Origin: Algoriphagus sp. CAU 1675
Lineage (GTDB): Bacteria; Bacteroidota; Bacteroidia; Cytophagales; Cyclobacteriaceae
NCBI RefSeq assembly: GCF_029222925.1
Contig: NZ_JARHUI010000003.1
Location: 293,721 to 357,720 of the forward strand
Reading direction: 5' to 3'
Length of the DNA stretch: 64,000 nucleotides
Shown: piece by piece, positions 12,401-27,789 of the stretch
Numbering within the stretch: the stretch's first letter is position 1
Layout: each line of letters starts with the position of its first letter
Notes under the pieces: generated by a model
What the model was told of the DNA's origin: nothing
Seen by the model: the letters and a program-made list of their open reading frames with translations, nothing else
Databases searched by the model: none
Position numbers and translations under genes: made by a program

Positions 12401-13813
12401 TTCCACCCCGGTAAGGAATAAGATGGGGGTAAATACAATGAGGATGATAATCTGTCCGAAAAAGGCCGAACTCATCATTGTACTGCCCGCATCATAAGCA
12501 ACCTCATCCATTACGCCCTGGTTGAATTTGATTTTCCCTGACCGGATGCGCTTTTGGATTTCATACACTGTGCCCTCTATAATGATCACCGCCCCGTCAA
12601 TGATGATCCCAAAATCAATGGCCCCAAGGCTCATCAGGTTGGCCCACACATTGAACTGCTTCATTAAAATGAAGGCAAACAGTAGGGAAAGCGGAATGGT
12701 AGTCGCAGTGATAATACCGCCACGAAGGCTACCCAACAGAATCACCAGGGCGAAAATGACAATCAGCGCCCCTTCTATAAGATTGGTTTTTACAGTATCG
12801 GTAGTCCTGGAAATTAAATCACTACGATCAATTATCGTATTGATCGCTAATCCCTCCGGAAGAGATTTTTCTATCTCTTCCATACGCTCTTTTACATTCT
12901 GAATGACTGCATTGGGATTGGAGCCTTTTAGCATCATAATAATGCCGCCAACAGCTTCTTTTCCATCCTGTGTGAAAGCCCCATATCGCACCTGGCTGCC
13001 GAAGTGTACTTTAGAGGCTACATCACCTACCGTAACCGGGATCCCATTTTCTGTTTTTATGACGATTTTTCGGATATCATCCAGAGAGCGCACCAAGCCT
13101 TCTCCACGGATGAAATTAGACATCCTGTTCTTCTCAATGTAAGCCCCACCGGTATTAACATTGTTTCTGGCCAGAGCCTCATATACTTGAGAGATGCTCA
13201 CATTCTGTGCATTGAGTTTATCCGGGTTAATGGCCACTTCATATTGCTTAATATAGCCACCGAAAGAATTCACCTCAACCACACCTTCAAGCAAAGTTAA
13301 TTGCCGTTTTACAATCCATTCTTGGATCGTGCGCAACTCCATAGGTGAATACATCGAGTCATAACCCTCTTGTGGTTCAATGGTGTATTCATAAATTTGG
13401 CCTAAACCGGTAGAAATGGGACCCATTGATGGGCTTCCAAATTTCTCAGGTATGGTCTCTTTTAATTCGATCAGTTTTTCCTGTACCAGTTGGCGGGGCA
13501 GATAGGTACCCATATCGTCTTCAAAAACAATGGTAACGACAGAGAGGCCGAACCTCGAAACAGAACGGATTTCATCTACTCCCGGCAGGTTGCCCATGGC
13601 CAGCTCCACAGGGTAAGTAACGAACTGTTCGATATCCTCAGTGGCCAGGTTTTCTGATACAGTAATTACCTGCACCTGATTATTGGTAATGTCGGGTACA
13701 GAGCCCAGATTGACGGTGGACATGGAGTATATACCCACTCCAATGAGCGCCAGCGTGAGCAGGCCAATAATAAGCTTGTTTTTTATTGAAAACGAAATTA
13801 TTTGATTAATCAT
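9401..13813 (-). CDS. CzcA-type heavy-metal RND pump fused to a TolC-like channel
   Basis: 1470 residues, about 400 longer than an ordinary CzcA/CusA. Residues 1-1042 are a complete HME-RND pump. TM4 carries DFGIIIDGAV near residue 397, the proton-relay signature of the divalent-cation (Zn/Co/Cd/Ni) types, not the Cu/Ag CusA type. After the last pump helix, residues 1057-1082 look like a signal peptide (I-I-A-L-I-V-C-G-G-L ending A-N-A-Q). They are followed by an outer-membrane efflux protein of the CzcC/TolC family with its paired coiled-coil repeats (L-E-Q-A-R-K-R-A and Y-R-E-G-A-I-D-Y-V-T). The fusion therefore spans inner membrane to outer membrane. It is first in the operon with the adaptor and CDF genes. 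Confidence 0.9.
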   Translation of the reverse strand: MINQIISFSIKNKLIIGLLTLALIGVGIYSMSTVNLGSVPDITNNQVQVITVSENLATEDIEQFVTYPVELAMGNLPGVDEIRSVSRFGLSVVTIVFEDDMGTYLPRQLVQEKLIELKETIPEKFGSPSMGPISTGLGQIYEYTIEPQEGYDSMYSPMELRTIQEWIVKRQLTLLEGVVEVNSFGGYIKQYEVAINPDKLNAQNVSISQVYEALARNNVNTGGAYIEKNRMSNFIRGEGLVRSLDDIRKIVIKTENGIPVTVGDVASKVHFGSQVRYGAFTQDGKEAVGGIIMMLKGSNPNAVIQNVKERMEEIEKSLPEGLAINTIIDRSDLISRTTDTVKTNLIEGALIVIFALVILLGSLRGGIITATTIPLSLLFAFILMKQFNVWANLMSLGAIDFGIIIDGAVIIIEGTVYEIQKRIRSGKIKFNQGVMDEVAYDAGSTMMSSAFFGQIIILIVFTPILFLTGVEGKMFQPMAYTFGFAMIGAIFLCLTYVPMMSALFMKPVQNKKNWFGRFERWLEKVSDKIIDGIQWVYLPLLKGALRFKAIVITVAIVLLVAAGFIFSRMGGEFVPQLDEGDIAMQALIRPGSSLSESKEVSIKIENLLLESFPEIKTVTARIGVADIPTDPMPMDIADMYLILEKDKDKWVSVETKDELIEQIKEKLETNLTGVNLVFTQPVELRFNELLEGVREDIAVKLYGEDLEVLAAKVQEMADIISTVPGAGDVNPERTSGLPQMTVRYNRDKIAQYGLDIQKINEYVSSAFAGGVAGVIFEGEKRFDLVIRFDEAHRKSIDDLRTLYIDLPDGTQVPIKEVADISYVPGPMQISRDNTYRRTYVGVNTRGRDVESVVNDIQKKLDAQLDLPPGYYISYGGEFENLERAKSRLAIVVPIALFLIFVLLYFALKSFSQSIMIYIAIPLAAIGGVFALWVRDIPFSISAGVGFIVLFGVAVLNGLVLINRFNSLKEEGVTSIRDRIFTGTKERIRPIMLTATTDILGFMPMAFSASAGAEVQRPLATVVIGGMLTATLLTLVVLPVLYTLVEGRSDRRKSLKAPNANVIIALIVCGGLVGLPAVANAQQQGQEKDSLPTITLEQARKRAVESYPKIQSARLEIESQQALKKTAWDLGNTQIFTGKEEVGNGSDGVYTQFGIQQQQIDVFGIAPRLKLQKERVALAEAALDLSVIELEREVSQAWAQVYASKNNYQVYEQLDSVFTDIERAARIRLETEATSKLEYLATSNQANQVQIQKEQAYRDYLSALQRLNLWFANDTLFTVPDIPATHLDEPLNYVADSLMNHPILNVSKQQVDVADATIKERRSQFFPQLQGQYGRQQVDGQSGFYQYQIGIRIPLFFGPELGRTQSAKIQRDIAGQNLRQNQLELNAAYQEMKEQYLKWLYSWNYYRDEALPLAQEQRAGAILAYREGAIDYVTFLQNIRDAIRIEVDSWNAFGNYLNSRYQLEYYLKTSN

Positions 13814-14375: not shown

Positions 14376-14786
14376 TTATTGGTTACACTTATCGCATAAT
14401 CCTTTAATGACCATGTTAGCTTGTGCCATTTTAAAATTATTTGGTAGATTGACTAAAGGAATAGGGTGGTCTAAAAGGCAAAAAGTCATTTCACATGAAG
14501 TGCAATAGAAATGATAATGAAGGTCTTCTGGATCGCAATTGCAGCCTTCTACACATACAGCATACTTGGTCATCCCTGAGCCATCTTCGATACTATGGAT
14601 CACCTTATGATCTTCAAAAGTTTTTAGTGTGCGAAAAATTGAACTTCTGTCTGATTGATCGAGACCAACTTCAATGTCCTTTAAAGACTGTGCTTTCTTT
14701 TGTTCTAATAGGTAGCGCAGTACTACTATCCTTACAGCAGTCGGCTTTACGTCCTTAATTTTAAATATTTCTTCTATTCTGTCCAT
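14376..14786 (-). CDS. Fur-family metal-responsive regulator
   Basis: 136 residues from the ATG at 14786, which overlaps the Argonaute stop as TAATG. An upstream TTG at 14798 in the same frame is less likely. The N-terminal winged helix (T-A-V-R-I-V-V-L-R-Y-L-L and S-S-I-F-R-T-L-K-T-F) is followed by the dimerisation/metal domain with H-Y-H-F-Y-C-T-S-C and a terminal C-D-K-C, forming the structural zinc site of Fur/Zur/PerR proteins. It is the last gene of the defence operon by spacing, yet is followed by the DUF6660 and RND genes it more plausibly controls. The sensed metal is not evident. Confidence 0.85.
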   Translation of the reverse strand: MDRIEEIFKIKDVKPTAVRIVVLRYLLEQKKAQSLKDIEVGLDQSDRSSIFRTLKTFEDHKVIHSIEDGSGMTKYAVCVEGCNCDPEDLHYHFYCTSCEMTFCLLDHPIPLVNLPNNFKMAQANMVIKGLCDKCNQ

Positions 14787-16885
14787 TACAAGAACCAAAG
14801 ATTGTCTTTACCGTAATCAGGAATCTCGTTGCCTTCAAAGTAGGGGAGCATTTCTGCCACCATTTCAGGGTACTTGATTGTTACGGGCAAATTTTGTTGT
14901 CTTACTGATTTCCAGTACATGCGACTGAATTGATACACTTGATTGATAAGCTCTTTGACTGTTTTGTAATCATCAACCAATTCAGGGTTGGAGCAATTTA
15001 TCTTGAGCTTTACCGGAAATGAAAATCCATCATTGAAATTGAACTCTGATGCGGAATACCTGGTATTGTTGAAAAGTAAAAACCTGTTGTAACCTAATTT
15101 GATGAATGTGCCACTTACTGGCATCAAATCTTTCCAGTCTAAATCAAAGGCAACAATATCGGAGGATTCCGTTTTATTGATGGTGACGATAAAGACCGGA
15201 ATGTTCAATTCCAATTCTTTCAGGCCGTTTTCAATCGGTTCTACTTCCTCTCTACTCATGTCTTTGTAGAAGTGAATTACCAGCCTTCGGATTCCTGTAT
15301 TTACATTCACATAGTCTTTAACCGCTCTTAGGATAGAACCTGCCAACTCTTTTGTTTGGTCTTTCTGAAAGCATTCAAAGCGATTAAATTTCCCTGTATT
15401 GGAGAAACTGAAAGCACTGCCGATATATTGAATGTCAACTTCTGTGTGCTTGAATGCTCCAACTCCAACAATCAATTCATTTTTCAGCTTTGTGTCCAAC
15501 CTCCACGGAGTGCCATTGAGCTTTGCGAGAATGGCTATTGCGATGTTTGGCAAGCTGAAATGATACTTGTCGTTGGTAATCACTTTATCAGGGTCTATCA
15601 CCTGAGAGGAAACTCCTTTTTTCAATAGTAGCTCTTTCAGCTTGTAGTAAACCAACCTCTGAGATTTGACTGGAACATTCTTGCTGATTGGGGTAATGTA
15701 AATAGCTATGTGCTGAATGTCGGTATCAAAGTCCTTGTCATTGATTTGCTCATACAGTTCCGGCCAAGGATTATCCCTATCTTTAAAATAGATTGCGAGT
15801 TCTTTATCTGGATGATACGGTGTATGAATGAATTTTGATAGCCCCCTAAAGCCGTTGAGTTTGCCGTTAAAGTAGTTGTGAATCTTGGTAGCTACTTCTC
15901 TATCATCTTCATGGAGAATAAAAAAGAAATGAATCTTTGATGATGGGCTTAACTCGAAAGGACCATTTTCTGTAATGCCATAATACGGTACATGGTGCAG
16001 CTTTTGATTTCCAAATACGAGTTTGTTGCTGGACTTTTCAATTGAACCGATGCGGACTTCATCAACTGGAATAAACCCTTTAGATGAAAGCGGAATGATG
16101 GCCTTGAACTCGGTTGTATTAAGCTGCTCTCTGTAAAATTTATCAATGGCCGTTTTGAATTTCTTGTATTTGTTCGTCTTGTCCGGGGCTTCTGTTTCCT
16201 GGTGCAAAGCATCCCTGATTTCAAAATTCCAAACAGGATAAACCTTGTCGTAATTTCTTTTACCATCATCCGGCAATTCATCAAAGCGGTGTAGCCCTTT
16301 TTCATAGACCACCCAATTGAATGCCCTTACTGGTACTTCTTCAAATAATTCTGAGACAGGTGTTTTGAAAATCTTTGACTTGCCCTCAAATGTGACCAAT
16401 AATTCAAGGCTACTGGAAACTGTCCTAAACTGCACTTTCAAGGAAAAACGGTCAAAGGTTTTGTATATCCCTTCCTTGTCTTGTGTATCGCTTGGCAACC
16501 AAACTTCTGTATCGCTTACAAAATTAGGTTTGACCAAACAGCCCTTAGTTTTGAAATGGTTATGGATTAATGAATTGTAGTAGCGTTTGAGAATTGATGA
16601 AGACAATGCGGAATTGGAAATCGGAACGGTTTTCTCAATTCCTTCTTCAGTTGTGATTTTCTCAAAGGTTGGTGTAGTTGGCTTAGTGACCGGAATGAAC
16701 CCTTCTTTTTCTTGGCAAAACGATGTGTAGTAATGCTCCTGCTCTCCATACTTATCAAAGACCTCATCAGGAACTAATGAATGATAAATTCGTGTGGTTC
16801 CCTCTTGCTCCTTATCTGAAAAATAGAAGGTAAGCGAATCGCTCGGGTGATTGAATGTTAGTATGTTAAAACAGTGCTTGGGCAT
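14786..16885 (-). CDS. Prokaryotic Argonaute (pAgo), full-length, PIWI site apparently degenerate
   Basis: 699 residues, the length of a long pAgo. N and PAZ-like regions occupy about 1-385. The MID domain (about 388-460) has the guide 5'-phosphate pocket pattern Y414-K415, Q428 and K455, within S-S-Q-V-I and A-I-L-A-K-L-N-G-T-P-W. The PIWI domain (about 440-699) ends with the typical Q-V-Y-Q-F-S-R-M-Y-W-K-S-V and L-P-V-T-I-K-Y. Where active proteins have I-V-G-x-D, this one has LIVGVGAF (471-478), so the first catalytic Asp is missing. The other tetrad positions are not obvious either. It probably binds guide and target without cutting and would need a partner effector. It starts 6 nt after the RhuM-family gene. 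Confidence 0.8.
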   Translation of the reverse strand: MPKHCFNILTFNHPSDSLTFYFSDKEQEGTTRIYHSLVPDEVFDKYGEQEHYYTSFCQEKEGFIPVTKPTTPTFEKITTEEGIEKTVPISNSALSSSILKRYYNSLIHNHFKTKGCLVKPNFVSDTEVWLPSDTQDKEGIYKTFDRFSLKVQFRTVSSSLELLVTFEGKSKIFKTPVSELFEEVPVRAFNWVVYEKGLHRFDELPDDGKRNYDKVYPVWNFEIRDALHQETEAPDKTNKYKKFKTAIDKFYREQLNTTEFKAIIPLSSKGFIPVDEVRIGSIEKSSNKLVFGNQKLHHVPYYGITENGPFELSPSSKIHFFFILHEDDREVATKIHNYFNGKLNGFRGLSKFIHTPYHPDKELAIYFKDRDNPWPELYEQINDKDFDTDIQHIAIYITPISKNVPVKSQRLVYYKLKELLLKKGVSSQVIDPDKVITNDKYHFSLPNIAIAILAKLNGTPWRLDTKLKNELIVGVGAFKHTEVDIQYIGSAFSFSNTGKFNRFECFQKDQTKELAGSILRAVKDYVNVNTGIRRLVIHFYKDMSREEVEPIENGLKELELNIPVFIVTINKTESSDIVAFDLDWKDLMPVSGTFIKLGYNRFLLFNNTRYSASEFNFNDGFSFPVKLKINCSNPELVDDYKTVKELINQVYQFSRMYWKSVRQQNLPVTIKYPEMVAEMLPYFEGNEIPDYGKDNLWFL

Positions 16886-16891
16886 TTTACA

Positions 16892-17935
16892 TCATTTTTT
16901 GTTTTTCCCTTTTTTAGTGATCCGCTTTACTTCCTTATCAAAGTCGGATTCAAAATTCTTGTCCTGAACTACTCTGAATTTATTATATTCCTTTTCAGCT
17001 AATTGCTTGGCAATGGTGGCTGAAATTTTACCTGCGTCTTTCAATACATTGTACTCATTGAATTGAAGAAATGCATCTAAACGAGCTACCCAATCTGTCA
17101 TTTTCATTGGAACTTGCCGTTCAGCTTGTAGCTCGGCAAAGTCCAGATACATGGTCACTATTCGGTTGAGGTCCCGGATCTCTTTTTCATTCAGGTAGTT
17201 TTTAGCTACCGAAACATCTGTTTTTAGGATTTTACCTTGGGGGGCATTCTTCCATGTAGTTAAACCCATAAAAGGTTTAGCTGCATTGGCTCTTTCTTTG
17301 ATAATTTCGGCTGCTGTATGGCCAGTAATAGCCCAATGGAGTTTGTTTTGTACAGTTTTGTAAAAAGTCTGTGTTATCTCAGCTTTGGGATCATAGTCTA
17401 TGCTGCATTGCGCATAGATGTCGGTTATTTTCTGGTAGAAGCGTCTTTCACTGGCTCGTATCTCTCTGATACGTTCCAGTAATTCATCAAAGTAATCTTT
17501 GCCAAAGAGTGCAGAACCTTGCTTTAGGCGTTGGTCGTCCATAGCAAAGCCTTTGATAATGTATTCCCGCAATACTTTAGTAGCCCAGATACGGAACTGT
17601 GTACCCCGTTGCGATTTGACCCGATAGCCAACTGAAATAATAACGTCCAGATTGTAATACTTAACCGTATTTTCCTGAGTTTTACCTTCAATGGCACCAT
17701 GAGGACTGGTAGTTCGGAAATCCCGAACAACCACTTCTTCGTTTAATTCCCCTTCTTCAAATACATTTTTGATATGCTCTGATATGGTGGACTTTGCTTT
17801 TTCAAACAACTCTTGCATACCCTTTTGGGTGAGCCATACTGTTTCATCATGCAGCAATACATCTACCTTAATATCTCCACTTTGGGAGACATAGAGTAGA
17901 AATTCGCTTTGATTTGGTGTAAGACTGTTTTCCAT
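16892..17935 (-). CDS. RhuM-family protein (virulence RhuM / Fic-Doc-associated)
   Basis: 347 residues of the RhuM family. The N-terminal winged-helix part has the conserved V-W-L-T-Q-K-G-M-Q-E-L-F and S-T-I-S-E-H-I-K-N-V-F. Next come Y-N-L-D-V-I-I-S-V-G-Y-R-V-K-S and R-I-W-A-T-K-V-L-R-E-Y, then a helical C-terminal domain (F-Y-K-T-V-Q-N-K-L-H-W-A). The C-terminus is a Lys-rich tail. RhuM genes are frequently embedded in type I restriction loci; the molecular activity is undefined, and DNA binding is plausible from the N-terminus. It is flanked tightly by PtuB (5-nt gap) and the Argonaute (6-nt gap). Confidence 0.85.
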   Translation of the reverse strand: MENSLTPNQSEFLLYVSQSGDIKVDVLLHDETVWLTQKGMQELFEKAKSTISEHIKNVFEEGELNEEVVVRDFRTTSPHGAIEGKTQENTVKYYNLDVIISVGYRVKSQRGTQFRIWATKVLREYIIKGFAMDDQRLKQGSALFGKDYFDELLERIREIRASERRFYQKITDIYAQCSIDYDPKAEITQTFYKTVQNKLHWAITGHTAAEIIKERANAAKPFMGLTTWKNAPQGKILKTDVSVAKNYLNEKEIRDLNRIVTMYLDFAELQAERQVPMKMTDWVARLDAFLQFNEYNVLKDAGKISATIAKQLAEKEYNKFRVVQDKNFESDFDKEVKRITKKGKNKK

Positions 17936-17940
17936 ATTTG

Positions 17941-18549
17941 TTAATTGGCACTTAATTTTTTATTTAAAAGCCATAGAACCGTGTTACAGTAAGGTTGAAA
18001 TTTACCTTCAGGACTTTTAGTTTTGTATTGATCAATTAATTTTTTAATGCTAATGCTCTTGTAACCAATCTTTTTTAATGCTAAAGCAGCACCATATAAT
18101 GCTCCTTTTCTATTTGAAATCAACACCGAATTGTTCAGGTTAAGTGTTTCTTCTATGTCTACTTTATACTTATCTGGATATGTCAATTTACCATTAGTGC
18201 TATATCCAATAATTGCTTCGCAGTTGTTTCTCGGATCAGCCGGATGAATGCTCAATTCAGTGTTTTCCTTTTTGGTATCACAATGCTTATCCGAACAAAA
18301 ATCACCTTTGCAAGCCGCAAAAAGATTAATGTATTCCATTTTTAAAGTAGGATAAGTACTTCTCGGTTTATAGTGCTCCACCTTCATATTTTCCTCTTTA
18401 ATTCCATTCATACAATAGCAGCATATATACCCTTGATCATTTAGCAATGCCTCCTTCAATTCAGGGATTGCGTCAAAATCAACTCCTGCCGTTTCTCTAT
18501 AAGCTTTCCATGCCGCTGGCTCATTTCCTTTGACAATAAACTTCATCAC
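17941..18549 (-). CDS. ptuB: PtuB-like HNH endonuclease (Septu effector)
   Basis: 202 residues. An HNH core has a zinc-binding Y-I-C-C-Y-C, then V-E-H-Y-K-P-R with the catalytic His, then N-L-F-A-A-C and H-C-D-T-K-K. This is the pattern of TIGR02646-type HNH proteins, which serve as PtuB in Septu and in retron-Septu systems. It begins immediately after the ATPase gene (stop 18550, start 18549), the standard ptuA-ptuB order. In Septu the ATPase restrains the nuclease until phage infection. No retron reverse transcriptase or msr-msd is visible nearby, so this is a stand-alone type. Confidence 0.85.
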   Translation of the reverse strand: MMKFIVKGNEPAAWKAYRETAGVDFDAIPELKEALLNDQGYICCYCMNGIKEENMKVEHYKPRSTYPTLKMEYINLFAACKGDFCSDKHCDTKKENTELSIHPADPRNNCEAIIGYSTNGKLTYPDKYKVDIEETLNLNNSVLISNRKGALYGAALALKKIGYKSISIKKLIDQYKTKSPEGKFQPYCNTVLWLLNKKLSAN

Positions 18550-20040
18550 TCATTCACCTTTTAAAAAAGCCAACATTGTTTCTGCACGGGTCAATTCTGG
18601 ATCATCTGTATGCTTTTGCTTTAACTCTTCCAGCACTTTAATAGCTTTTTCGAACTGTTCACTGTCGATGAGTTCAAATAATGTGTCAATTTCTTCCTGT
18701 ACTTCAGGAACTCTCTCATTGCCCCCCATAATGGCAGAAAGATTAAATCCATACTCACGACCGTAGTATCCTTTATCTATTGGAACTGCCTTGCCTTCGC
18801 TCATTTTGAATAAGTCTCCACTTGAAAGATTGGATAGCATTATTGTTGAATGAGATGCTATAATAAATTGGGGAGGCGGAACCGATAAAGCTTTGTACAA
18901 ATCAATTACCTCATAAATTCCTTTCAGAAAACTACTTTGCCACTGTGGATGCAGGTAAGTATCTGGTTCATCAAGAAGTAAAAGAGAGTTTTCGTCTACA
19001 AGGAGTTCATTGATAGCTTTAATGGTAATAAGTTGTTGCTGCCCCTCGCTTAAATCATGGTGGGAAATTGCAATTTCTGGCAAATCCATGAAGATTTGTA
19101 TTCCTCCAAGCATTTCCGATGCATGAAGCATGTGAAGCAGGTAAAACAACTTTTTTTCTTCTCCATAAAATTCTCTCAATGCGTACCAGTCATGTATATG
19201 GAAATTGAATAAGATTTGATCTTCATCCATGTAGTTTGCGGTCTCATTGTATGCAAACCTTCTCACTACATCAAGAAAGCCTCTCAGTAATCCTTTAGCA
19301 CCCCAAAATTCCTCCGCACCAGCTCCTGATTTCCATTGTCTCTTTTTGACAAACAAGGCTAGTGGGTTTTTATCGGGCTTAGTGATTTTGAGATCTTCAG
19401 CAAAAAAACGATCTACACGGTCATTGAACTCAAATGCATAAAGCGAAGCCAGTAAGATTTCGAAATGATGCTTTTCGATATACATCAATGGTAAAGCTCC
19501 AATTCTTGAATATAACTCCTCAGAAGAGGTAGTAATATCTGAATCGGTTTTGGCTTCAAGTAGTCTTTCCTTGTATATCTTTTCGTGTTCGCTGCAGATA
19601 AATTCCATTGACTCAAACCATCCTGCATAATAGATTACCAAGTTTGATGGTAACAGCTTTTCTATCGTATGTTTTTTAATGAGATTATCAATACTATAGG
19701 CGTTATTATCTGTATCGATTGACCAGAATTTCTTGTTTTTTCTATCGCCTTTTAAGGTAACACCAATGTAGTCGGTAGCTGTTTCACTGAAAGTGCTGGA
19801 TTCTGATAGCACTTTTTCAATTCTAAGGTCATAAGTGATTTCAAAATCAAATGGTGTGTTTTCCTGTTTTTCCTCAACATAAGTAAGGTGAGCCGAGCGA
19901 AATATCCAAGCAATGGCTTCTAAGAGTGTAGATTTACCCGAACCATTCTTGCCTATAAAGAGTGATACTGGTTCATTAAAGTTAATTGTAAAGTCCTTTA
20001 ATGATTTAAATTCCTTGATATGTAAGTGATGTATTCTCAT
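18550..20040 (-). CDS. ptuA: PtuA-like AAA/ABC-type ATPase (Septu)
   Basis: 496 residues of the SMC/RecF-like ATPase group. Walker A is GKNGSGKST at 30-38, an ABC-type signature is at about 328 (L-S-E-G-Q-Q-Q), Walker B with D-loop is at about 355 (LLLLDEPDTYLHP), and an A-S-H-S switch follows. The last 70 residues are a helical repeat-like tail (A-I-K-V-L-E-E-L). Paired with the adjacent HNH gene it makes the two-gene Septu anti-phage system, in which PtuA forms a ring-like assembly holding PtuB. Its start overlaps the stop of the small P-loop gene by 4 nt (ATGA). Confidence 0.85.
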   Translation of the reverse strand: MRIHHLHIKEFKSLKDFTINFNEPVSLFIGKNGSGKSTLLEAIAWIFRSAHLTYVEEKQENTPFDFEITYDLRIEKVLSESSTFSETATDYIGVTLKGDRKNKKFWSIDTDNNAYSIDNLIKKHTIEKLLPSNLVIYYAGWFESMEFICSEHEKIYKERLLEAKTDSDITTSSEELYSRIGALPLMYIEKHHFEILLASLYAFEFNDRVDRFFAEDLKITKPDKNPLALFVKKRQWKSGAGAEEFWGAKGLLRGFLDVVRRFAYNETANYMDEDQILFNFHIHDWYALREFYGEEKKLFYLLHMLHASEMLGGIQIFMDLPEIAISHHDLSEGQQQLITIKAINELLVDENSLLLLDEPDTYLHPQWQSSFLKGIYEVIDLYKALSVPPPQFIIASHSTIMLSNLSSGDLFKMSEGKAVPIDKGYYGREYGFNLSAIMGGNERVPEVQEEIDTLFELIDSEQFEKAIKVLEELKQKHTDDPELTRAETMLAFLKGE

Positions 20041-20471
20041 AACTGTCCATTCATGATTAGTTTGATTAATTCCAGAATTTCACTAGCAGCTATTTGATTC
20101 AATTGCGTTTGGTTTTTATGCCATGAGCGGTGATTGGTTGACCAAATGATTTCGTATTGATGATGGCGGTGCAAGTCTTCAACTGCCCACGCTGTTGCGC
20201 CTCTGGAACGGCACGAACAAATAATAATATCGCATCTCTGAGCTACGAATGTTTGAAGACTCTGAAACATTCTGCTATTCGGATCTCCCTGGCTTTCTAT
20301 ACCTATTTTTATACCTTTGAAGTCAACGATATAAGTAATATCTGCACCAGTGTTAATTGCCTGAAGTGTGTGGTTTGGAAAAGTGACTAACAATAAATTA
20401 GCTGTTTCAAGAACCGTTTCCGATTTCCCCTGACTCGATGGCCCGTATATGGCAATTACTGATTTTTTCAT
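20037..20471 (-). CDS. Small P-loop NTPase-like protein of unknown function
   Basis: 144 residues. Walker A at residues 10-17 (G-P-S-S-Q-G-K-S) is preceded by a hydrophobic strand. Downstream are Y-I-V-D-F-K-G, a D-I-I-I-C-S-C-R-S-R strand and loop that could serve as Walker B-like, and I-I-W-S-T-N-H-R-S-W. It is too short for a kinase plus lid and lacks known motor motifs. It lies between the specificity subunit (3-nt gap) and ptuA (4-nt overlap), so it is translated with the defence genes. It could be a nucleotide sensor, a third Septu component or a regulator; nothing in the sequence chooses between these. Confidence 0.6.
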   Translation of the reverse strand: MKKSVIAIYGPSSQGKSETVLETANLLLVTFPNHTLQAINTGADITYIVDFKGIKIGIESQGDPNSRMFQSLQTFVAQRCDIIICSCRSRGATAWAVEDLHRHHQYEIIWSTNHRSWHKNQTQLNQIAASEILELIKLIMNGQL

Positions 20472-20474
20472 AGG

Positions 20475-21842
20475 TTAGTCAATATTGAAAATGCTGGATT
20501 CAAAATTTTTATATGAAGTCTCTCGATTCTTCTCAGCTTGGTTAAGCATTTCTTTAATCGAATCCTTTATTTCCTTCAATTGATTTAACAATTTCTGTTG
20601 GATATCTAATGGAGGTAATGGAATCAATAGCGATTGTATTGTGGATTTTGAAACTTGTTTGAAAGTAGACCCTGTTCCAAATCGTTGTAAATCATCTTCG
20701 AGATAGTCTAACATTTCAAATAGAAATTCAGGAATTACACTATCAGAAATAACAGTTATTGCTGAAACGCCTCTGCCAAGGCAATAATCTTTATCACTCC
20801 AAACAATTTTTCCAATTGTAGCTCTAACACACAAGATAATATCTCCATTAGTGCTTGTTGCACTTGGCTTCTTATGAAATCTTGTAGCAGAAATTTGCCC
20901 ATCATTTAACTCACTAGCCCCTCCAATGAAGGGTAATCCTTCAGTATTACTGAAATAACTGCTATTTGGTGAAATCCCCATAGTAATTCTTGCAATCTCA
21001 TCAAGACGAACAGATGGAAACAACTTGGAAATTTTCACCTGTTTTCTTCTACCTGTAGTAAAAAATGAATCCCATTCACGCATACTGGAAAACTTGACAA
21101 TATTAAGTTTACCATTTGAATGTTCATTTTTTAGTTCGTAATCAATACCCAAAGAGTTTTTAAGAAAATTATCTTTTTGAGATTTTAAATTTTCGACTTC
21201 ATTCAGTTGATTTTGACTTAAAGAATGAAGATTTTTGAAATCTTGTACAATATCATTCTGGATTTTGAGTGATGGCACTGGAATCCTAAACGCCAAGAAT
21301 GCCTTTTCATCCACTCTTTGCCTCCCTGTTGTACCAGAGCTTGCTTTTTGGCACAATTCGGCAAAGTGTTTTGTGCCTGTGATCAGGTTGAAAAATTCGG
21401 GTAGAATCTTTTCAATATTGATGTTGTAGCTCAAGAAATCCTGCGTGGTGATAGCCCCTTCAAGTTCAGCAGGTACAATGCCGAATGCTCCATTACGGGC
21501 GTCTATCTTGCTCATAATGAATTGTCCTTCTGATATGCGGAACTGATTCTTTGTGCCAATGTCTTTGCCAAAAATCAGTTCATCACCTCGCTGTATCACG
21601 CCTTTGCCGTACAACTTGATGGTTACTTGTTTGTACGCTTTATCATCTTCGAGTATTTCTTTGTCCCGATTACGCAAAATGAGATTACCGATAGGTTCCA
21701 GTTTGAACCCATCTTTATAAAAAACTTTGTCGCTCAGAATAGCACCCACGCTCCAATTGGAGAGGGTCATGAAGCGTACTTCATTGAGATATTTAAAGGC
21801 TTTCTCAGTGCGCATATGCTCCATAAAATATTTCAGGTTCAC
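20475..21842 (-). CDS. Restriction-modification specificity subunit (HsdS type)
   Basis: 455 residues with two target-recognition domains (about 30-190 and 240-420), each followed by a coiled-coil spacer (L-N-E-V-E-N-L-K-S-Q-K and the C-terminal L-K-E-I-K-D-S-I-K-E-M). Typical TRD phrases are L-L-I-P-L-P-P-L-D-I-Q and F-R-I-P-V-P-S-L. It supplies bipartite DNA sequence recognition to the modification subunit. The first ATG at 21842 gives a 38-nt overlap with the preceding gene; internal ATGs at 21824 or 21815 would reduce it. Operon position right after the methyltransferase is standard for type I and type IIB systems. Confidence 0.9.
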   Translation of the reverse strand: MNLKYFMEHMRTEKAFKYLNEVRFMTLSNWSVGAILSDKVFYKDGFKLEPIGNLILRNRDKEILEDDKAYKQVTIKLYGKGVIQRGDELIFGKDIGTKNQFRISEGQFIMSKIDARNGAFGIVPAELEGAITTQDFLSYNINIEKILPEFFNLITGTKHFAELCQKASSGTTGRQRVDEKAFLAFRIPVPSLKIQNDIVQDFKNLHSLSQNQLNEVENLKSQKDNFLKNSLGIDYELKNEHSNGKLNIVKFSSMREWDSFFTTGRRKQVKISKLFPSVRLDEIARITMGISPNSSYFSNTEGLPFIGGASELNDGQISATRFHKKPSATSTNGDIILCVRATIGKIVWSDKDYCLGRGVSAITVISDSVIPEFLFEMLDYLEDDLQRFGTGSTFKQVSKSTIQSLLIPLPPLDIQQKLLNQLKEIKDSIKEMLNQAEKNRETSYKNFESSIFNID

Positions 21843-24138
21843 TTACAATATTGCCATCAATCAACTGTAGTCTTGAAATGTTACCATCATCATCAACAGG
21901 ATATTGTGTTTCTTTTCTAGGTTCAGCCCAGAGCTTGGCTTTTTTTCTGTAGGCTCTAAACTCTACAGCCACTTCTTCCAACTCATTTTCGCAGGGCGCA
22001 CCGGTACTGGATATGCCTGCCTTTTCTACTTCTATAACCGGAATAGGATAATCGAAACGTTCTTTCACAAGCGGTTTAATTTCCGCAGCAATTAGGTCTT
22101 CAATTTGCCTTACATCTTCGGCATATTTCTTTTTCAACTCCCGAAGGTCTTTGGCTGATCTACTTTCTTTCAATTTCTTCTCTTCTTTTTTGAAAGTCGC
22201 TTTCAATTCATCCAGTTTTGGCTGGTATTTGTCTTTAATCTCTTTGGTGGTTTCCTCTGTGATTTTTTGATAGGTAGCCAACTCTTCTTCACTGAACTTT
22301 TTAAGGAATAGTAAGCTTGGTTTTACTGTAGCACCTGAGGCAATGAATACATCCTGAGGGATAGAAGTGATGTTGATAATCTTTGCCTTTCCTTCAATGT
22401 ATTCTCTAATTTTTTGAAGGGCACTGTTGTTTAAAACTCCTTCGGGCAATACAATACCCAATCTACCGCCTGGTTTTAGAAGGTTGAGACATCTTTCCAT
22501 AAATAGCACTTCTGTCAAACCACTCCATGCACCCACATCAAAAATGTCTAATAAGGCTTTTCCTCGGCTTTTACCGTGGCCATTGTCATAGGTTGCCCAA
22601 TCTTGTATTTGCTTAACAACAGTCTGTCTGTAATGGCTACCGTAACGATCTTCATAAAATCTGATTTTATCCTCATTGGGAACATCAGAGGGAGTTACTT
22701 TCAATGTTTTGTTGACTCTGGAACCAAAAGGAGGATTGGTAAGTATGACATCAAAACGTCCATCAAATATGCCGTTGACATTGAGTAATCCATCATGATG
22801 ATGCACTCCTCCATGACCATCACCATGCATAATCATATTCATTTTGGCGGTTCGAGCCATTCTTGGATTGGCGTCTGTACCGAAAATACAGTCGTATGAG
22901 AGCGTTTTTAAGCGGCCTTTAGGATTGTGGATGTCCAATTCAAAATTTAGCTTTACAAATAAGTCATCTACACGCTTTGCAATTTCCTCTTGTTTCTTTT
23001 CTGGTAACTTCTCGTAATCTTGACCAAAGTAAAGCTCCTTTATTATCTCTTTTTGCTTTTGGACATCCCTCTCAATTTTTTCCCTTACATATTCAAATGC
23101 TTTAATGAGGAATCCACCACTACCACAGCAAGGATCGCAAATAATTTCACCTTCTTCTGGATCAAGCACGTCAACCATATAGTCCACAATGGTTCTTGGT
23201 GTAAAGAATTGACCTAACTCACCTCTAAAGGTTCTTCCCAAAAACTCTTCAAAGGCAATCCCTTTGATATCATCAGAAGTGTCAGAGAGATTGTATTTCT
23301 CCAATTCCTTAACGATTTGTAGAAAGCTGGTTTCCCTAATTTTTATACTGTCATTAGGGTCGAAGATTTCATCTGTTTTGAATACTTCTTTTGTCTTTTC
23401 GAAAAAATGTTGGTAGAAGGGAAGGGAATCCTTTCCTGTGATTTTTTCATAGGCAGATTTCAAATCTTCAAATTCTTTTCTGGAGAACAGCGCTTTTGTT
23501 TTGGCTTGTTCTCTTTCGTAGCGAATTTTCATGAAGAGAATTTTGCTGATCTCATCAAATGCAGCCTCTGGTGAAAGCTTGTCATTGTTACGGATGATGT
23601 TGTGACATTTGAAAAGCAGCTTACTAAACTCGTCTCTGGTAAATGCCTTTGTTTTGGTTAAAAGCTCTTCAATTTTCTTTTTATCAAAAAGTTCAGTAGC
23701 GTTTGGAATTTCAACTACCTCTTCTAGCTTTTTAGGCATTTTGCCTTTCACTACCCTAAAAAATTTGGTGTCTTTTAGATTGGTGGTAACAAAGAAATCA
23801 GCACCTGCCCATGAAGCATAGTTGTAGCCTTGGTAGTAATCTTCTTCGTGTATTGTAATTTGTTCGGCTTTACATTCAATTACAATCACTGGACTGTTAT
23901 CCGAGTTGCGATCTTCTTTCGTTTTCCAAATGACGATGTCTGCTCTGGCTTTTCCTTGACCTCTTTTGGAATTATTGACTTTTACTTCCTGGGCCATTTG
24001 ATCTAGGGAATAGCCATATTTATTCACTAGGTGAATGATATATTCCTGTCTGACTTCTTCTTCCGGGGTACAGATTAATTCTTTGCCGATCAATGGGGCA
24101 AAAATCTTGTTACCGTTTTTTTTGATTTCTATAGCCAT
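21805..24138 (-). CDS. Nuclease-methyltransferase fusion (HsdR_N-like domain plus HsdM N6-adenine methylase)
   Basis: 777 residues, about 250 more than a plain HsdM. The N-terminus (about 1-140) carries a PD-(D/E)XK nuclease pattern: A-R-A-D with D67, then V-I-E-C-K with E88 and K90, as in type I R-subunit N-terminal domains. Next are the HsdM helical region, the SAM motif DPCCGSGG near 333 and the catalytic T-N-P-P-F near 467. The C-terminal part has a coiled coil rich in Lys and Glu. No separate helicase-type hsdR exists in the window. With the following S gene this resembles the BcgI-like (type IIB) arrangement, in which one polypeptide cuts and methylates. Confidence 0.85.
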   Translation of the reverse strand: MAIEIKKNGNKIFAPLIGKELICTPEEEVRQEYIIHLVNKYGYSLDQMAQEVKVNNSKRGQGKARADIVIWKTKEDRNSDNSPVIVIECKAEQITIHEEDYYQGYNYASWAGADFFVTTNLKDTKFFRVVKGKMPKKLEEVVEIPNATELFDKKKIEELLTKTKAFTRDEFSKLLFKCHNIIRNNDKLSPEAAFDEISKILFMKIRYEREQAKTKALFSRKEFEDLKSAYEKITGKDSLPFYQHFFEKTKEVFKTDEIFDPNDSIKIRETSFLQIVKELEKYNLSDTSDDIKGIAFEEFLGRTFRGELGQFFTPRTIVDYMVDVLDPEEGEIICDPCCGSGGFLIKAFEYVREKIERDVQKQKEIIKELYFGQDYEKLPEKKQEEIAKRVDDLFVKLNFELDIHNPKGRLKTLSYDCIFGTDANPRMARTAKMNMIMHGDGHGGVHHHDGLLNVNGIFDGRFDVILTNPPFGSRVNKTLKVTPSDVPNEDKIRFYEDRYGSHYRQTVVKQIQDWATYDNGHGKSRGKALLDIFDVGAWSGLTEVLFMERCLNLLKPGGRLGIVLPEGVLNNSALQKIREYIEGKAKIINITSIPQDVFIASGATVKPSLLFLKKFSEEELATYQKITEETTKEIKDKYQPKLDELKATFKKEEKKLKESRSAKDLRELKKKYAEDVRQIEDLIAAEIKPLVKERFDYPIPVIEVEKAGISSTGAPCENELEEVAVEFRAYRKKAKLWAEPRKETQYPVDDDGNISRLQLIDGNIVSEPEIFYGAYAH

Positions 24139-24145
24139 TGCTCAA

Positions 24146-24436
24146 TTATTTCGATTTCTTTTTTAATTCTTGTTCGGCATGTTTAAGTGCTGCTAATGCA
24201 GCTGTTTCATCCCCAACGTTCTCAATGATTTTATCGGACAGCCAAATTGTTAACAATTCATCTTCATTGGCATTCAGTAATTTGGCCAAAGCTATGACCT
24301 GTTCTCTCTTTGCATTTCTCTCCCCACGCTCAATTTTGCTAAACATTGGAGTGTCTATTTCAAGATTGGCGGCCAATTGACGCTGTAAAAGCCCCTGGCT
24401 TTCTCGTAGCTCTTTTATCCTTTCACCAAAGTGCAT
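24146..24436 (-). CDS. XRE-family HTH regulator of the defence operon
   Basis: 96 residues. The first 65 form a classical Cro/C1 HTH (I-K-E-L-R-E-S-Q-G-L, then R-Q-L-A-A-N-L-E-I and F-S-K-I-E-R-G-E-R), followed by a helical tail ending E-Q-E-L-K-K-K-S-K. It is the first gene, 7 nt before the nuclease-methylase fusion. Controller-type XRE proteins commonly delay restriction relative to methylation. A candidate operator, TTGTC-N8-GACAA, overlaps a perfect -7 box 19-36 nt upstream, so autorepression is likely. Confidence 0.9.
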   Translation of the reverse strand: MHFGERIKELRESQGLLQRQLAANLEIDTPMFSKIERGERNAKREQVIALAKLLNANEDELLTIWLSDKIIENVGDETAALAALKHAEQELKKKSK

Positions 24437-24454
24437 GACTTTTTATTTTGTGAC

Positions 24455-24472
24455 TTGTCAAATTTAGGACAA
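24455..24472 (-). promoter_or_regulatory. Defence-operon promoter -7 box overlapped by an inverted repeat
   Basis: TAAATTTG on the minus strand (24459-24466) fits TAnnTTTG exactly. It is nested in TTGTC (24455-24459) / GACAA (24468-24472), a candidate XRE operator. The -33 element is not clear. Confidence 0.5.
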
Positions 24473-24612: not shown

Positions 24613-24642
24613 GGAAGAAAAGCCCAACGGGCTTATTCTTCC
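24613..24642 (-). terminator. Terminator overlapping the stop of the DUF3987 gene
   Basis: GGAAGAA-AAGCCC/GGGCTT-TTCTTCC arms fold across the stop codon at 24633-24635, with TTTTC on the minus strand. Confidence 0.55.
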
Positions 24643-26528
24643 TTGATTTCCTTAATATCCTGAGATTCCTCAAGTGAGGTGTTTATGTACTGGTCGTGTG
24701 CCTCACGGTGAATAAGCCCTGATTTCACAAAGTTGGCAATGTAACCTTCGGCTGTCTTTGCCGGAATGCTCATGGTTTTTGCTACTTCGAGGTACTTCTG
24801 ACGGTTGAAGGTATGTGGCAAGGCATATAGAAACTTCTCTTTCTTATTCAACCGAGCTGGCTTAGGCTCTTCTTGTGGAAGTTCTCCAAACACTTTACTG
24901 GAATGCTTCACCAGTACTTTGACCATTGAAAGCGAAGCTTGAAAATCCCTTTCCTCACAAATCATCTTCTTGGAAGTGTCGCCTGTTTGACAGCTTTTGG
25001 ATAATATCTCTCCAGTGGTGCTGTCGAATGCGCCAATATTTTTATCGTATTTAATGTGGCGCATTTCCATGATCCGCAAAGCGGAGAATATCATGCAGAT
25101 TCGGTAAGCAATCAAACCTAACCTTCTGATAGTGGCCATGTAGTCCAATCCTTGAAGGTTCATGTACTTTTCCTGTATCTGCCCAAAGAACTGGTTGAAT
25201 TGCTCCTGTTGGTCTGCCGTAAGGTAGAACTGCTTTGGCTCATTCTGCATGATTTCTTTATAGAGTTCATAGAACTCATTGCCCAAGGCTTCAAAGTAAT
25301 CGTCCAATCCGTTATCGGTCTGGCTTGCAAAAACATTTTTCCATACCGGGCGAACGTTCATGAAATAGAAGATGAAACGGCTGAATAAGCCGTTTTCAGC
25401 GTTGGGTATTAAAGCCGAAACTTGTTTTGGCGTTCCTGAAAGGACAGTAGAAAGACAAGGGCTTTCTATGTCCACAAACTCACGGTCGGTTCTGCGATAG
25501 TAGGAAATGGTTTCATGGTGAAAGGCTTTTCTAAAGCCATCACTGTAGTTTCCGTAATCGCTCTTGAAGGCATGGGCTAAGGTATCACCTTCGGTCTCGA
25601 ATATCAGACCTCTGCCATCACTATCACCCAAAAGCTGATAAGCTCCCGTTGAACTATTGTTGGCCGGAATGAACAGCATTTTTTCAGGTGGTTTGGCTGG
25701 CTTCTCGATACCGTCTTCCTTTCCCTTCTTGGAGTTGTATTCTGCCATTTCCAATTCATAGTGCTGTTTATGGAGTTTGGCTTGTTCCCTCAATTCTTTG
25801 TGAATGGGGTTGACCAACTGACGACAATGCACCAAGCGGCCTTTACCTGCGGATGCCTGGGCTGTAATGAATAGGAATAGATTGGGGAATACTCGTTTGC
25901 CATCATATATGCCCGATACTTTGGGCAAACATGCGCTGATAGCTCCGAGGGAACCGAGGAGGAGAATATCTCTTTCCTCATTGGATGTGGCAACCGCCAC
26001 AACCTTTTGCAGAAATTCAGGAAGTTCAGGAAACAAGGAATCTGGAAAGGTTGGCATTTCTTCCGGTTCCTGATTTTCGGGCTGGTGGTATTCAGATTGA
26101 CTACCATTCAGCTTTTCACTTTTGAAAGTTCGCTGATCCTTTTTTTCTGTCCGTGGAGGTGCTATGTCAATTCCTGCATCTTTGGCGAGGTAGAAAAAGG
26201 TCTTTAGTGAAACGCCATGACCTTTTGATTTCAAGCAATTGTCAAATTGCTTGTCGCACTCCGGTGCGGAATAGCCTGGATAAAACTGGCTCACCCTATG
26301 AAATAGGGTGCGGCCATTTTCTCCAAACTCATCAGAGAAGGCAAATCCGATATTTACCCAATCGCTATACGTGGAGGTAATATCTGTTCTGTTGGCTTCA
26401 ATGCTTTGGATGATGCGTTCTACTTCGTCTATATGAGAATCTGTATTGAAAGTTTGTTGCTCTGTAACTTTCGGTTGCGGGGTTGGCTGATTAAGCCAAT
26501 CCTGCGGATTGAATGTTTTTCTTTCCAT
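24633..26528 (-). CDS. DUF3987 primase/helicase-like replication protein
   Basis: 631 residues. The N-terminal part (about 30-120) resembles a PriCT-2 primase C-terminal domain (S-D-W-V-N-I-G-F-A-F, C-D-K-Q-F-D-N-C-L, S-L-K-T-F-F-Y-L-A). The central DUF3987 region has L-L-L-G-S-L-G-A-I-S-A-C-L-P, I-T-A-Q-A-S-A-G-K-G-R as a Walker A-like loop, and S-T-G-A. The C-terminus reads like a winged helix (A-K-T-A-E-G-Y-I-A-N-F-V). Such proteins follow BT4734/VirE_N proteins in Bacteroidota elements and are thought to act in element replication. It starts 3 nt after the primase-like gene upstream. Confidence 0.8.
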   Translation of the reverse strand: MERKTFNPQDWLNQPTPQPKVTEQQTFNTDSHIDEVERIIQSIEANRTDITSTYSDWVNIGFAFSDEFGENGRTLFHRVSQFYPGYSAPECDKQFDNCLKSKGHGVSLKTFFYLAKDAGIDIAPPRTEKKDQRTFKSEKLNGSQSEYHQPENQEPEEMPTFPDSLFPELPEFLQKVVAVATSNEERDILLLGSLGAISACLPKVSGIYDGKRVFPNLFLFITAQASAGKGRLVHCRQLVNPIHKELREQAKLHKQHYELEMAEYNSKKGKEDGIEKPAKPPEKMLFIPANNSSTGAYQLLGDSDGRGLIFETEGDTLAHAFKSDYGNYSDGFRKAFHHETISYYRRTDREFVDIESPCLSTVLSGTPKQVSALIPNAENGLFSRFIFYFMNVRPVWKNVFASQTDNGLDDYFEALGNEFYELYKEIMQNEPKQFYLTADQQEQFNQFFGQIQEKYMNLQGLDYMATIRRLGLIAYRICMIFSALRIMEMRHIKYDKNIGAFDSTTGEILSKSCQTGDTSKKMICEERDFQASLSMVKVLVKHSSKVFGELPQEEPKPARLNKKEKFLYALPHTFNRQKYLEVAKTMSIPAKTAEGYIANFVKSGLIHREAHDQYINTSLEESQDIKEIKEE

Positions 26529-26531
26529 GTC

Positions 26532-27506
26532 CTACAAGTATTTAGGATTGATGAATATTTCTGAATCATGCGGAAGGAAACAGGCTCTTGAAATGTCCTT
26601 TCCGGATTGGTCTATTTCGAGTTGGTAGGTGTGGGAAACGTAGTTTGCCACTGCCTTGAAATAGTCCTGGTGTTTTGCCTGCGTCAAGTCGATTGGAATT
26701 ACCCATTTGAGGCCATCACCTGAAGGAGATACAAACAGTAGCTCCGTTTCAAAGTAGTGGTCGTTGAGTAGTGCTGCCTTGAGTGAAGGAATGTCCTGAA
26801 TGTGGTCAAAATCGATTGTGAGCAAACCTGAATGTCTTTGAAGGTTTGCATCATTTCTCTTGGAGAAAGTGCCTGAGAAGGTCACATAATCGAAATTTTG
26901 AGCCTTATACTTTCTGGCTTCCTTCGGATCGGGAATTTTGCGGAGTGTACTTGTACACGAAGCAAATTCATTGCCTTTGATAAGGTGGTACACCTCAACC
27001 AAGGAGGCTTGCCGACTTGGGATTGTGTTGGTAACAGGCTTGTTGAAATAGCTGAAAACTGGCGCAGCCGGTTTGACTACTTCAGGAAGAGCAACCGTAG
27101 GTTGCGATTCTGCCTGAGCGTAAAAACCCTGTTGCTTACCGATCCGCAAATGCAGTTCTTCATTCAGCTTATCGAGAAGGGCTTGACCTTCGAGGCTGAA
27201 ATGCAGTGCTGCAAAATCAAAGACATTGCCTTGTGCAATAGCTTCTTCTGAATCGGTGTGGATGGCGCAGCCGTCAACAACTTTGATCAACAATGTGAGC
27301 TTGTCCTCATTAAAAGGGTTCTTAGAGGGTTTGCAGTCCCTTCCCGAAAGGGAAAGGACTGTTTGAGCACCTTTTGATTTATCTTTATTCGGTGTGCTCG
27401 AATCTCCAGAGTCGATTTCACCCGGATAGTACTGTCGCAGCACATAGGCGTAGATATTCAAGCCGTAGTGCGTTTTGTCGAGAATGGCTTTTCTACTTAC
27501 CTCCAT
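26532..27506 (-). CDS. BT4734/VirE_N family protein, predicted primase-polymerase
   Basis: 324 residues. The C-terminal two thirds hold the BT4734-like N-terminal domain: H-S-G-L-L-T-I-D-F-D-H-I with a metal-binding D-x-D, then F-V-S-P-S-G-D-G-L-K-W-V, and R-A-C-F-L-P-H-D. These fit the archaeo-eukaryotic primase core. The first 120 residues are variable. With the adjacent DUF3987 gene it forms the usual primase-helicase pair of Bacteroidota islands. Its ATG at 27506 overlaps the preceding HTH gene by 14 nt, so translation is coupled. The primase role is inferred from family analyses, not shown here. Confidence 0.75.
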   Translation of the reverse strand: MEVSRKAILDKTHYGLNIYAYVLRQYYPGEIDSGDSSTPNKDKSKGAQTVLSLSGRDCKPSKNPFNEDKLTLLIKVVDGCAIHTDSEEAIAQGNVFDFAALHFSLEGQALLDKLNEELHLRIGKQQGFYAQAESQPTVALPEVVKPAAPVFSYFNKPVTNTIPSRQASLVEVYHLIKGNEFASCTSTLRKIPDPKEARKYKAQNFDYVTFSGTFSKRNDANLQRHSGLLTIDFDHIQDIPSLKAALLNDHYFETELLFVSPSGDGLKWVIPIDLTQAKHQDYFKAVANYVSHTYQLEIDQSGKDISRACFLPHDSEIFINPKYL

Positions 27507-27789
27507 AGTGCTTTGATTTTGAAGGTGAGTAATTGGATTCCAGCAAGGCTTCTATATCAGAAACCTTGTAATAGAACTTGCCATTGATTCGGCTGTAGGG
27601 AAGAACCCCACTATCCCGAAGGGATTGGAGGGTTCTTTTGCTGATGTGAAGCGTTTGCATCACTACCTGTCCATCAATCCACTCTTCGCTGAATTGCTCC
27701 AAGCGTGATTTGTGGAAGTTGAGGAGGTAAGCTTTGACTGTTTTTATGTCTTGAGTTAGTGTCAAGATCATATCCATTATCTCGTTCAT
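27493..27789 (-). CDS. HTH (MerR/excisionase-like) DNA-binding protein
   Basis: 98 residues from the ATG at 27789, which overlaps the preceding stop as ATGA; the longer open frame to 27993 lies inside the upstream gene and is not used. A short helical lead is followed by a winged helix (V-V-M-Q-T-L-H-I-S-K-R-T-L-Q-S-L-R-D-S-G-V-L-P-Y), a wing (N-G-K-F-Y-Y-K), then D-I-E-A-L-L. This is the helix_turn_helix_17-type fold common upstream of primase genes in Bacteroidota islands. It may regulate the replication block or act as a directionality factor. Confidence 0.8.
   Translation of the reverse strand: MNEIMDMILTLTQDIKTVKAYLLNFHKSRLEQFSEEWIDGQVVMQTLHISKRTLQSLRDSGVLPYSRINGKFYYKVSDIEALLESNYSPSKSKHYGGK

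Follow-up and report, generated by a model that had tools for sequence, protein, structure and literature searches.

A predicted inactive Argonaute behind an exchangeable restriction-modification slot in mnmE-side integrative elements of Bacteroidota

Prokaryotic Argonautes (pAgos) show a combined statistical link with phage-defence genes, restriction-modification (R-M) systems included, and inactivated pAgos share putative operons with predicted nucleases (passages of Makarova 2009). In its cited passages, Ryazansky 2018 (PMC6299218) lists the parts of pAgo operons singly, among them a lambda-repressor-like group (og_2), HsdS (og_11), a methyltransferase (og_13) and type III nucleases (og_21/34), finds RND efflux genes in 14% of long-B operons, and could build a consensus operon for MID-OH pAgos only. 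The passages of Song 2023 (PMC10620215) describe the long-B BPAN, BPAS and BPAM systems as well as an og_54 (VirE_N) subclade of long-B pAgos, in which og_54 usually lies 2 to 8 genes upstream and to which these passages assign no function. Here we analysed a 64,000-nucleotide (nt) stretch of the Algoriphagus sp. CAU 1675 genome, hereafter the window, in which an array of nine minus-strand genes leads from an XRE-family repressor through R-M, Septu-like and RhuM genes to an Argonaute and a Fur-like regulator.

The array resembles BPAN, BPAS and BPAM, as described by Song 2023, in having a predicted inactive full-length pAgo in a short-gap operon, and the og_54 layout, by its description, fits the backbone found here. 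Unlike in those systems, no nuclease, Sir2 or transmembrane effector lies directly downstream of the Argonaute, where Fur-like, AraC-type, GmrSD and other genes occur, none of them constant; the recurrent partner is instead an exchangeable R-M system upstream. Membership of BPAN, BPAS or BPAM was therefore ruled out, the constant downstream effector gene being missing. Beyond the single components in the cited passages of Ryazansky 2018, we observe the order XRE, R-M of any type, Argonaute and metal cargo within one element. In the open-licence PubMed Central passages of PMC6299218, PMC10620215, PMC2743648, PMC5303251, PMC12477606 and PMC5862659, we found no description of an inactive Argonaute preceded by a slot for exchangeable R-M systems.

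The array exemplifies a recurring plug-in design and is not a single new Argonaute-Septu machine, and the recurrent architecture is a real variant of inactive-Argonaute loci. It seems probable to us, with some reserve, that an integrative element beside mnmE carries a near-fixed, nuclease-dead, long-B-like Argonaute behind an XRE-controlled slot that takes exchangeable R-M systems, the two acting additively, presumably in defence. This arrangement offers a consensus operon where the cited passages of Ryazansky 2018 had none, for what is probably the matching og_54 subclade of Song 2023. Natural controls for Argonaute-restriction cooperation come from Argonautes that are nearly identical yet paired with type I, II or III R-M, and from relatives with none. 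The design also cautions against taking each array of R-M, Septu, RhuM and Argonaute genes for a separate new system.

The slot upstream of the Argonaute and its exchange

Slot contents were surveyed in 82 loci (80 named loci, the window and L020), the upstream run of each being scored with profiles built here; the named loci are the best 80 of 191, and close relatives therefore weigh more. An R-M system was defined as a methylase plus a restriction or specificity subunit. R-M classes were taken from hidden Markov models (HMMs) on protein clusters, with representatives checked in Pfam, the assignments in L125 and L144 being by HMM only. The order backbone, XRE, (R-M), Argonaute recurs in Bacteroidota beyond chance. 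The upstream run reaches XRE or the backbone in 53 of the 82 loci, where it holds R-M in 33, other genes in 9 and nothing in 11; across all 82 loci, a full R-M system is found in 39, a partial one in 11 and none in 32 (11 of the 32 stop at a contig edge). The systems are of type I, type III, type II (AlwI- and PstI-like) and IIG-like, with BREX parts in one locus, and the nine slots with other contents hold RhuM alone, Schlafen/AlbA-type, AAA_5, a TPR protein with a helicase, and others. RhuM lies upstream of the Argonaute in 9/82 loci and directly before it in 7/82, alongside differing R-M types. Within six same-strand genes downstream of the Argonaute, type I-III genes occur in 2/82 loci and GmrSD (type IV) in 8/82.

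An independent sample of 396 genomes drawn evenly from the class gave a PIWI match in 22. Thirteen of these were counted as family genomes (11 with a profile score >800, the window genome and G064; the intermediate L105 and L119 were excluded). With distances matched to Argonaute positions by eye, a methylase lies at most ~12.5 kb upstream on the same strand in 11/13, against 0.13 expected from methylase density; in the remaining two, methylase and Argonaute stand at the ends of different contigs. Outside the family, inactive-looking pAgos also sit inside R-M operons of type I-like (L107:4062-15919) and type III-like (L120:3698-10490) character, and two further pAgos, L122 and L123, have no R-M match nearby.

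We then compared slot type with Argonaute phylogeny on a tree of 92 distinct Argonautes, of which 75 were labelled by slot type (by hand, the IIG-like ones partly by size) and 17 unlabelled ones were left out of the change count. Slot type needs 30 changes on this tree, against a shuffled mean of 33.6, with 10/200 shuffles as low; type I and type III labels taken alone are unclustered (121/500 and 287/500 shuffles as low). The seven-row clade that includes the window (SH-aLRT 99) has type I-like slots in four rows, type III in two and type II in one, and the R-M systems paired with seven Argonautes at least 96% identical to that of the window are of type I, II or III. DNA homology of the window with L025, from Algoriphagus iocasae DSM 102044, and with L027-L030 extends to the XRE gene or just before it, and is absent upstream in L026; it restarts at most 3 nt from the Argonaute start codon in L025-L030 and, in L026-L030, stops at most 7 nt from its last base. 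The converse is seen in L040 and L029, whose R-M 3' parts are 95.6% alike up to 41 nt inside the Argonaute gene and ~73% alike thereafter.

Parts of the R-M block are exchanged as well. L148 matches the window closely in XRE (99% identical), methylase (99%), P-loop protein (92%), RhuM (99%) and Argonaute (96%), whereas HsdS is only 51% identical (its first half alike), PtuA 31%, and a different HNH-like protein replaces PtuB. The diverged PtuA/PtuB-like pair of L148 (6171-8259; PtuB named by eye) lies between the conserved P-loop and RhuM genes, and since both genes are swapped between conserved neighbours, the PtuA/PtuB pair seems, by this comparison, to move as a unit. In L132, a PtuB-like protein 71% identical to that of the window belongs to a PtuA/PtuB block without RhuM. 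The window PtuB had no relative among neighbour proteins of 76 loci at E 1e-8, a threshold that diverged ones would escape.

Some further slot contents were recorded. BREX parts (BrxL and a PglZ match at cut-off) occupy L064:2214-6622, and a reverse transcriptase (RVT_1) lies between HsdM and HsdR at L070:2893-4401, both upstream of the Argonaute. A protein of ~305 amino acids (aa) directly precedes the Argonaute in L030 (9091-10008), L049, L055, L056 and L057, with differing R-M types; it is DUF5655 by Pfam in L030 only and by clustering in the other loci, and a DUF5655 domain also ends the GmrSD protein downstream of the Argonaute in L043. Comparison of L128 and L143 with L127 and L066 shows a similar type I block, ending in a gene of 236-240 aa (a YgjP-like match by Pfam in L066 alone), both with and without an Argonaute behind it.

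The element, its Argonaute and the operator

The array belongs to the cargo of an integrative element whose insertion site in Bacteroidota lies next to mnmE, and the adjacency of integrase and target holds across hosts. Beside the array, genes follow in the order DUF3987/PriCT_2 primase, BT4734-like_N, HTH_17, DUF6617, tyrosine integrase and mnmE. An integrase match was found in 18/80 loci, 13 with mnmE in view and 5 without; the intervening distance is 583-602 nt in 12 loci; in L081, which has only a partial mnmE match, it is 927 nt. Identity to the window in these 13 loci is 47-91% for mnmE and 57-91% for the integrase. For DUF3987 domains that are fused to primases, a role as mobile-element helicases has been predicted (passages of PMC5862659).

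To ask whether Argonaute and R-M depend on each other, we searched with the backbone primase instead of the Argonaute. The close group (E<=1e-150) comprises 31 copies in 30 genomes, of which one ends at a contig edge and was excluded, leaving 30 informative copies; the three backbone samples overlap. The Argonaute is present in 27 of the 30 (in G269 by inference across a contig break), and tblastn gave no significant match in the other three (best E 0.41). R-M fills the slot in 17 of the 27 Argonaute-positive copies and in all three Argonaute-negative ones, so that the presence of the two is unassociated (Fisher p 0.53, a weak test with only three Argonaute-negative copies). In this close group, the Argonaute is thus close to core and R-M is frequent cargo.

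The Argonaute itself has lost two catalytic aspartates and is predicted to be inactive: glycine (G476) occupies the first catalytic Asp column in 60/60 aligned family members and, by comparison with an active-looking PIWI from the class survey (L124, IGIDAH / LRDG), the family members compared have G and Y in place of its two aspartates. The pocket is conserved, Y413, K417, Q428 and K455 being invariant in 60/60 and aligned with Y, K, Q, K of the RsAgo pocket; we take these to be the MID residues that hold the guide 5' end. A predicted model (pLDDT 90.1, pTM 0.85) has RsAgo, in a structure titled with guide RNA and target DNA, as its top PDB match (E 4.1e-33, TMq 0.69). RsAgo is thus the closest PDB fold and likewise has Gly in place of the first catalytic Asp, although identity is only 17-18% and AfAgo scores higher by sequence profile. 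Motifs, fold and profile matches point to a long-B-like protein, which the model suggests is probably RNA-guided and DNA-binding.

The ratio of non-synonymous to synonymous substitution rates (dN/dS) is 0.037-0.060 in 15 Argonaute pairs, five of them between R-M-less loci (17 pairs were tried; one of unequal length and one saturated were removed). These values indicate a maintained protein and not a decaying gene, under purifying selection also where R-M is absent. Carriage of the Argonaute on plasmids or phages was rejected: 4 of 72,556 plasmid records matched at E<=1e-10, at 22-25% identity over <80% of the query, and none of 50,697 phage records did at E<=1e-5.

A shared site for an XRE-type regulator at the front of the array, as proposed on first reading, recurs in relatives. 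The motif TTG[AT]CAAGT, the right half of a TTGTC-N8-GACAA dyad before the XRE gene, was sought in 38 distinct XRE regions from relatives, each spanning 85 nt upstream to 70 nt downstream of the listed XRE start, with the window excluded. It occurs in 21 of them, against 12 of 1900 random stretches, and in 19 of the 21 it lies 22-25 nt before that start. This recurrence suggests that XRE may act at the dyad. A candidate second XRE operator at 27953 was dropped because the site lies within the HTH_17 coding sequence.

Relation between the Argonaute and restriction

We posit that recombination would bring R-M systems of various types into the slot, with HsdS and PtuA/PtuB swapped too; at times the slot would take other genes, and otherwise it would remain empty. 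XRE would restrain the operon until the element reaches a new host. R-M would methylate self and cut unmethylated DNA, and the Argonaute would bind short guides, probably 5'-phosphorylated RNA, and pair with invading or competing DNA, which would be blocked or marked for other nucleases. Under one switch, the effects of R-M and Argonaute would be additive.

Several observations weigh against this interpretation. The exact operator 9-mer is missing from 17/38 XRE regions, and 9/42 filled complete slots lack R-M. Loci without R-M are clustered on the Argonaute tree (11 changes against a shuffled 14.8; 1/500 as low) while type I and type III labels alone are not, which indicates that R-M is gained and lost less readily than its type changes. 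Copies carrying only the Argonaute or only R-M mean that neither requires the other. Among 21 genomes whose backbone is more distant (E 1e-150 to 1e-60), five have this Argonaute behind it, one another pAgo and 11 none in view, and four are cut short; the near-core status of the Argonaute is therefore limited to the close group. Finally, no convincing att repeats or second copy of the mnmE 3' end were found in the window or genome, so that the far border of the element is not placed.

The initial annotation had suggested, besides simple stacking, a PIWI-RhuM-PtuB-PtuA system in which the Argonaute could release PtuB. The recurrent adjacency this implies holds for the order, R-M upstream and then Argonaute, whereas the partners are interchangeable and separable: PtuA/PtuB, HsdS, RhuM and the whole R-M block are all exchanged, so the gene set is not fixed, and a fixed system was rejected. 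A dedicated Argonaute-Septu-RhuM system with the Argonaute controlling PtuB is consequently very hard to credit. L148 does repeat the window order with its diverged pair, but L132 dispenses with RhuM, PtuB-like genes were seen in three such operons only (the window, L132 and, diverged, L148), and RhuM stands upstream of the Argonaute in the 9/82 loci counted above. Near-identical Argonautes are found beside R-M of type I, II or III, and other Argonautes beside no R-M at all. We likewise regard as improbable a scheme in which the R-M nuclease is the effector and a guide-directed Argonaute recruits or activates whichever nuclease lies upstream, here including PtuA/PtuB. An inactive PIWI with R-M upstream in series would suit it, as would the inactivated pAgos in a putative operon with a predicted nuclease in the passages of Makarova 2009. 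However, the partner nucleases (HsdR, Res, PstI-type, AlwI-type, PtuB) are unrelated and present no evident common interface for an Argonaute, ten of the 27 Argonaute-positive close copies have no R-M, and presence of the two is unassociated, weak as that test is; the exchange of R-M types also argues against a direct protein partnership.

Without protein contact, R-M cleavage fragments of invader DNA, or transcripts, could become Argonaute guides, any R-M type being sufficient. This would account for free R-M type with constant order and shared control, yet XRE-Argonaute-only loci keep the Argonaute under strong purifying selection and the RsAgo structure, with guide RNA and target DNA, fits transcript-derived guides better, leaving this idea rather unlikely. 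Plain stacking, in which a hotspot gathers R-M and Argonaute with a shared promoter as their sole relation, is a possibility we take seriously while doubting it. The exchange of R-M types, GmrSD after the Argonaute, slots filled by genes other than R-M, the metal cargo on the opposite flank and R-M without Argonaute in 3/30 close copies all agree with it; R-M in 33/42 filled complete slots, methylase or type I-III nuclease genes after the Argonaute in only 2/82 loci and retention of the Argonaute in 27/30 close copies are none of them predicted by random stacking. Additive action under common control remains our preferred interpretation. A tentative extension, which we consider on the unlikely side, would make the Argonaute a general partner of restriction: it would work with any R-M system by recognising a shared product, be it restricted DNA, unmodified DNA or transcripts, and would silence whatever escapes restriction alone; if true, elements would retain the Argonaute as a constant second layer while the R-M layer changed freely.

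Gene content of the array and its surroundings

Open reading frames, gaps and Pfam, PADLOC and NCBIfam matches agree closely with the contiguous minus-strand genes and the assignments first proposed, and confirm nine tightly packed co-directional genes (Table 1; gene calls are from a longest-ORF, i.e. longest open reading frame, script).

Table 1. Features of the array, the element and its insertion site, in window coordinates.
Feature	Coordinates	Strand	Evidence and remarks
Operator/promoter region	24453..24472	-	Before XRE start codon; TTGTC-N8-GACAA dyad at 24455-24472, with conserved TTGACAAGT
XRE-family repressor (gene 1, left border of slot)	24146..24436	-	Pfam HTH_31/HTH_3; protein cluster c0, 35 members
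HSDR_N_2 (PD-(D/E)xK) + N6 adenine methylase fusion	21805..24138	-	Pfam N6_Mtase, HSDR_N_2; PADLOC MTase_I 1191 bits; motifs DIVI/ECK, DPCCGSG, NPPF
HsdS specificity subunit	20475..21842	-	Pfam Methylase_S
P-loop protein of R-M module, 144 aa	20037..20471	-	No Pfam match
PtuA-like ATPase (Septu-like)	18550..20040	-	PADLOC PtuA1 198 bits; Walker A, signature and Walker B motifs
PtuB-like HNH nuclease	17941..18549	-	PADLOC PtuB1 192 bits; TIGR02646 above cut-off, NF041761 below
RhuM-family protein (PDC-S05)	16892..17935	-	Pfam PF13310, 391.6 bits (cut-off 33.7)
Argonaute, 699 aa, predicted inactive, long-B-like (right border of slot)	14786..16885	-	PADLOC pAgo 964 bits
Fur-family regulator (metal cargo gene 1)	14376..14798	-	Pfam FUR
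RND efflux pump of metal cargo	9401..13813	-	Pump homologue in 23/80 loci; presumably CusA-type
Membrane-fusion partner of RND pump	8120-9382		Matches HlyD_D23; described as CusB or HlyD type
DUF3987 + PriCT_2 primase-helicase (backbone)	24633..26528	-	Pfam; homologue in 49/80 Argonaute loci
BT4734-like_N protein, PF08800 (backbone)	26532..27506	-	Pfam; homologue in 34/80 loci; presumably the former VirE_N
HTH_17 (excisionase-like) protein	27493..27993	-	Pfam; homologue in 30/80 loci
Tyrosine integrase of element	29330..30424	-	Pfam Phage_integrase and arm-binding domain; adjoins mnmE in 13/80 loci
mnmE (host gene at insertion site)	31017..32399	-	Pfam MnmE_helical, TrmE_N

Junctions are short throughout: a gap of 7 nt from XRE to the fusion gene, a 38-nt overlap of the fusion gene with HsdS (GTG start as listed), a 3-nt gap to the P-loop gene, a 4-nt overlap of the latter with the PtuA-like gene, gaps of 0, 5 and 6 nt from PtuA-like to PtuB-like, RhuM and Argonaute genes in turn, and a TAATG junction between the Argonaute and the Fur-family gene. 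Judged by these gaps, the nine-gene block could be transcribed as one unit. Two minus-strand terminator-like sites fall inside the operon (23267-23249 and 16844-16832), both within coding sequence; the array holds 14 terminator-like sites against 7.9 in shuffles (sd 2.4). Promoter-like sites number 23 against 30.4 in shuffles, one of which, at 14785-14758 of the minus strand, coincides with the Fur start, by a sigma-70-style scan that is ill-suited to Bacteroidota. As a single nine-gene array, the initial annotation stood with regard to contiguity; its ninth gene, however, is the Fur-like regulator that opens the metal cargo, and the gene set is variable. In relatives, the place of the Fur-like gene is taken by an AraC-type gene (by Pfam), by a 109-aa gene that looks DksA-like by eye, or by others.

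The R-M module has the HsdM (N6_Mtase) and HsdS of a type I system, with an HSDR_N domain fused to the methylase; Pfam finds no helicase domain in any of the nine genes, and a canonical type I system was rejected for want of an HsdR translocase in the operon. Methylase, HsdS and ATPase show weak to moderate similarity to MAD2, MAD5 and MAD3 of MADS, membership of which was rejected as all three fall below NCBIfam cut-offs (MAD2 297/720, MAD3 30.8/420, MAD5 27.9/400 bits). The PtuA/PtuB-like pair is like Septu in its adjacent ATPase and HNH-type nuclease, exchanged together in L148, and unlike it in missing the NCBIfam equivalog cut-offs (PtuA 69.5/500, PtuB 83.5/150 bits) and in being embedded in an R-M operon after HsdS and the P-loop protein. 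For the latter, no PDB match was found at E<=0.001 with an AF2 (AlphaFold2) model of pLDDT 80. Its homologues sit after HsdS in L148, L132 and L034 (four loci compared, including the window), and it may assist the methylase-HsdS set. At 6668-6743 and 7220-7295, the window has a pair of 76-nt direct repeats that are 76% identical.

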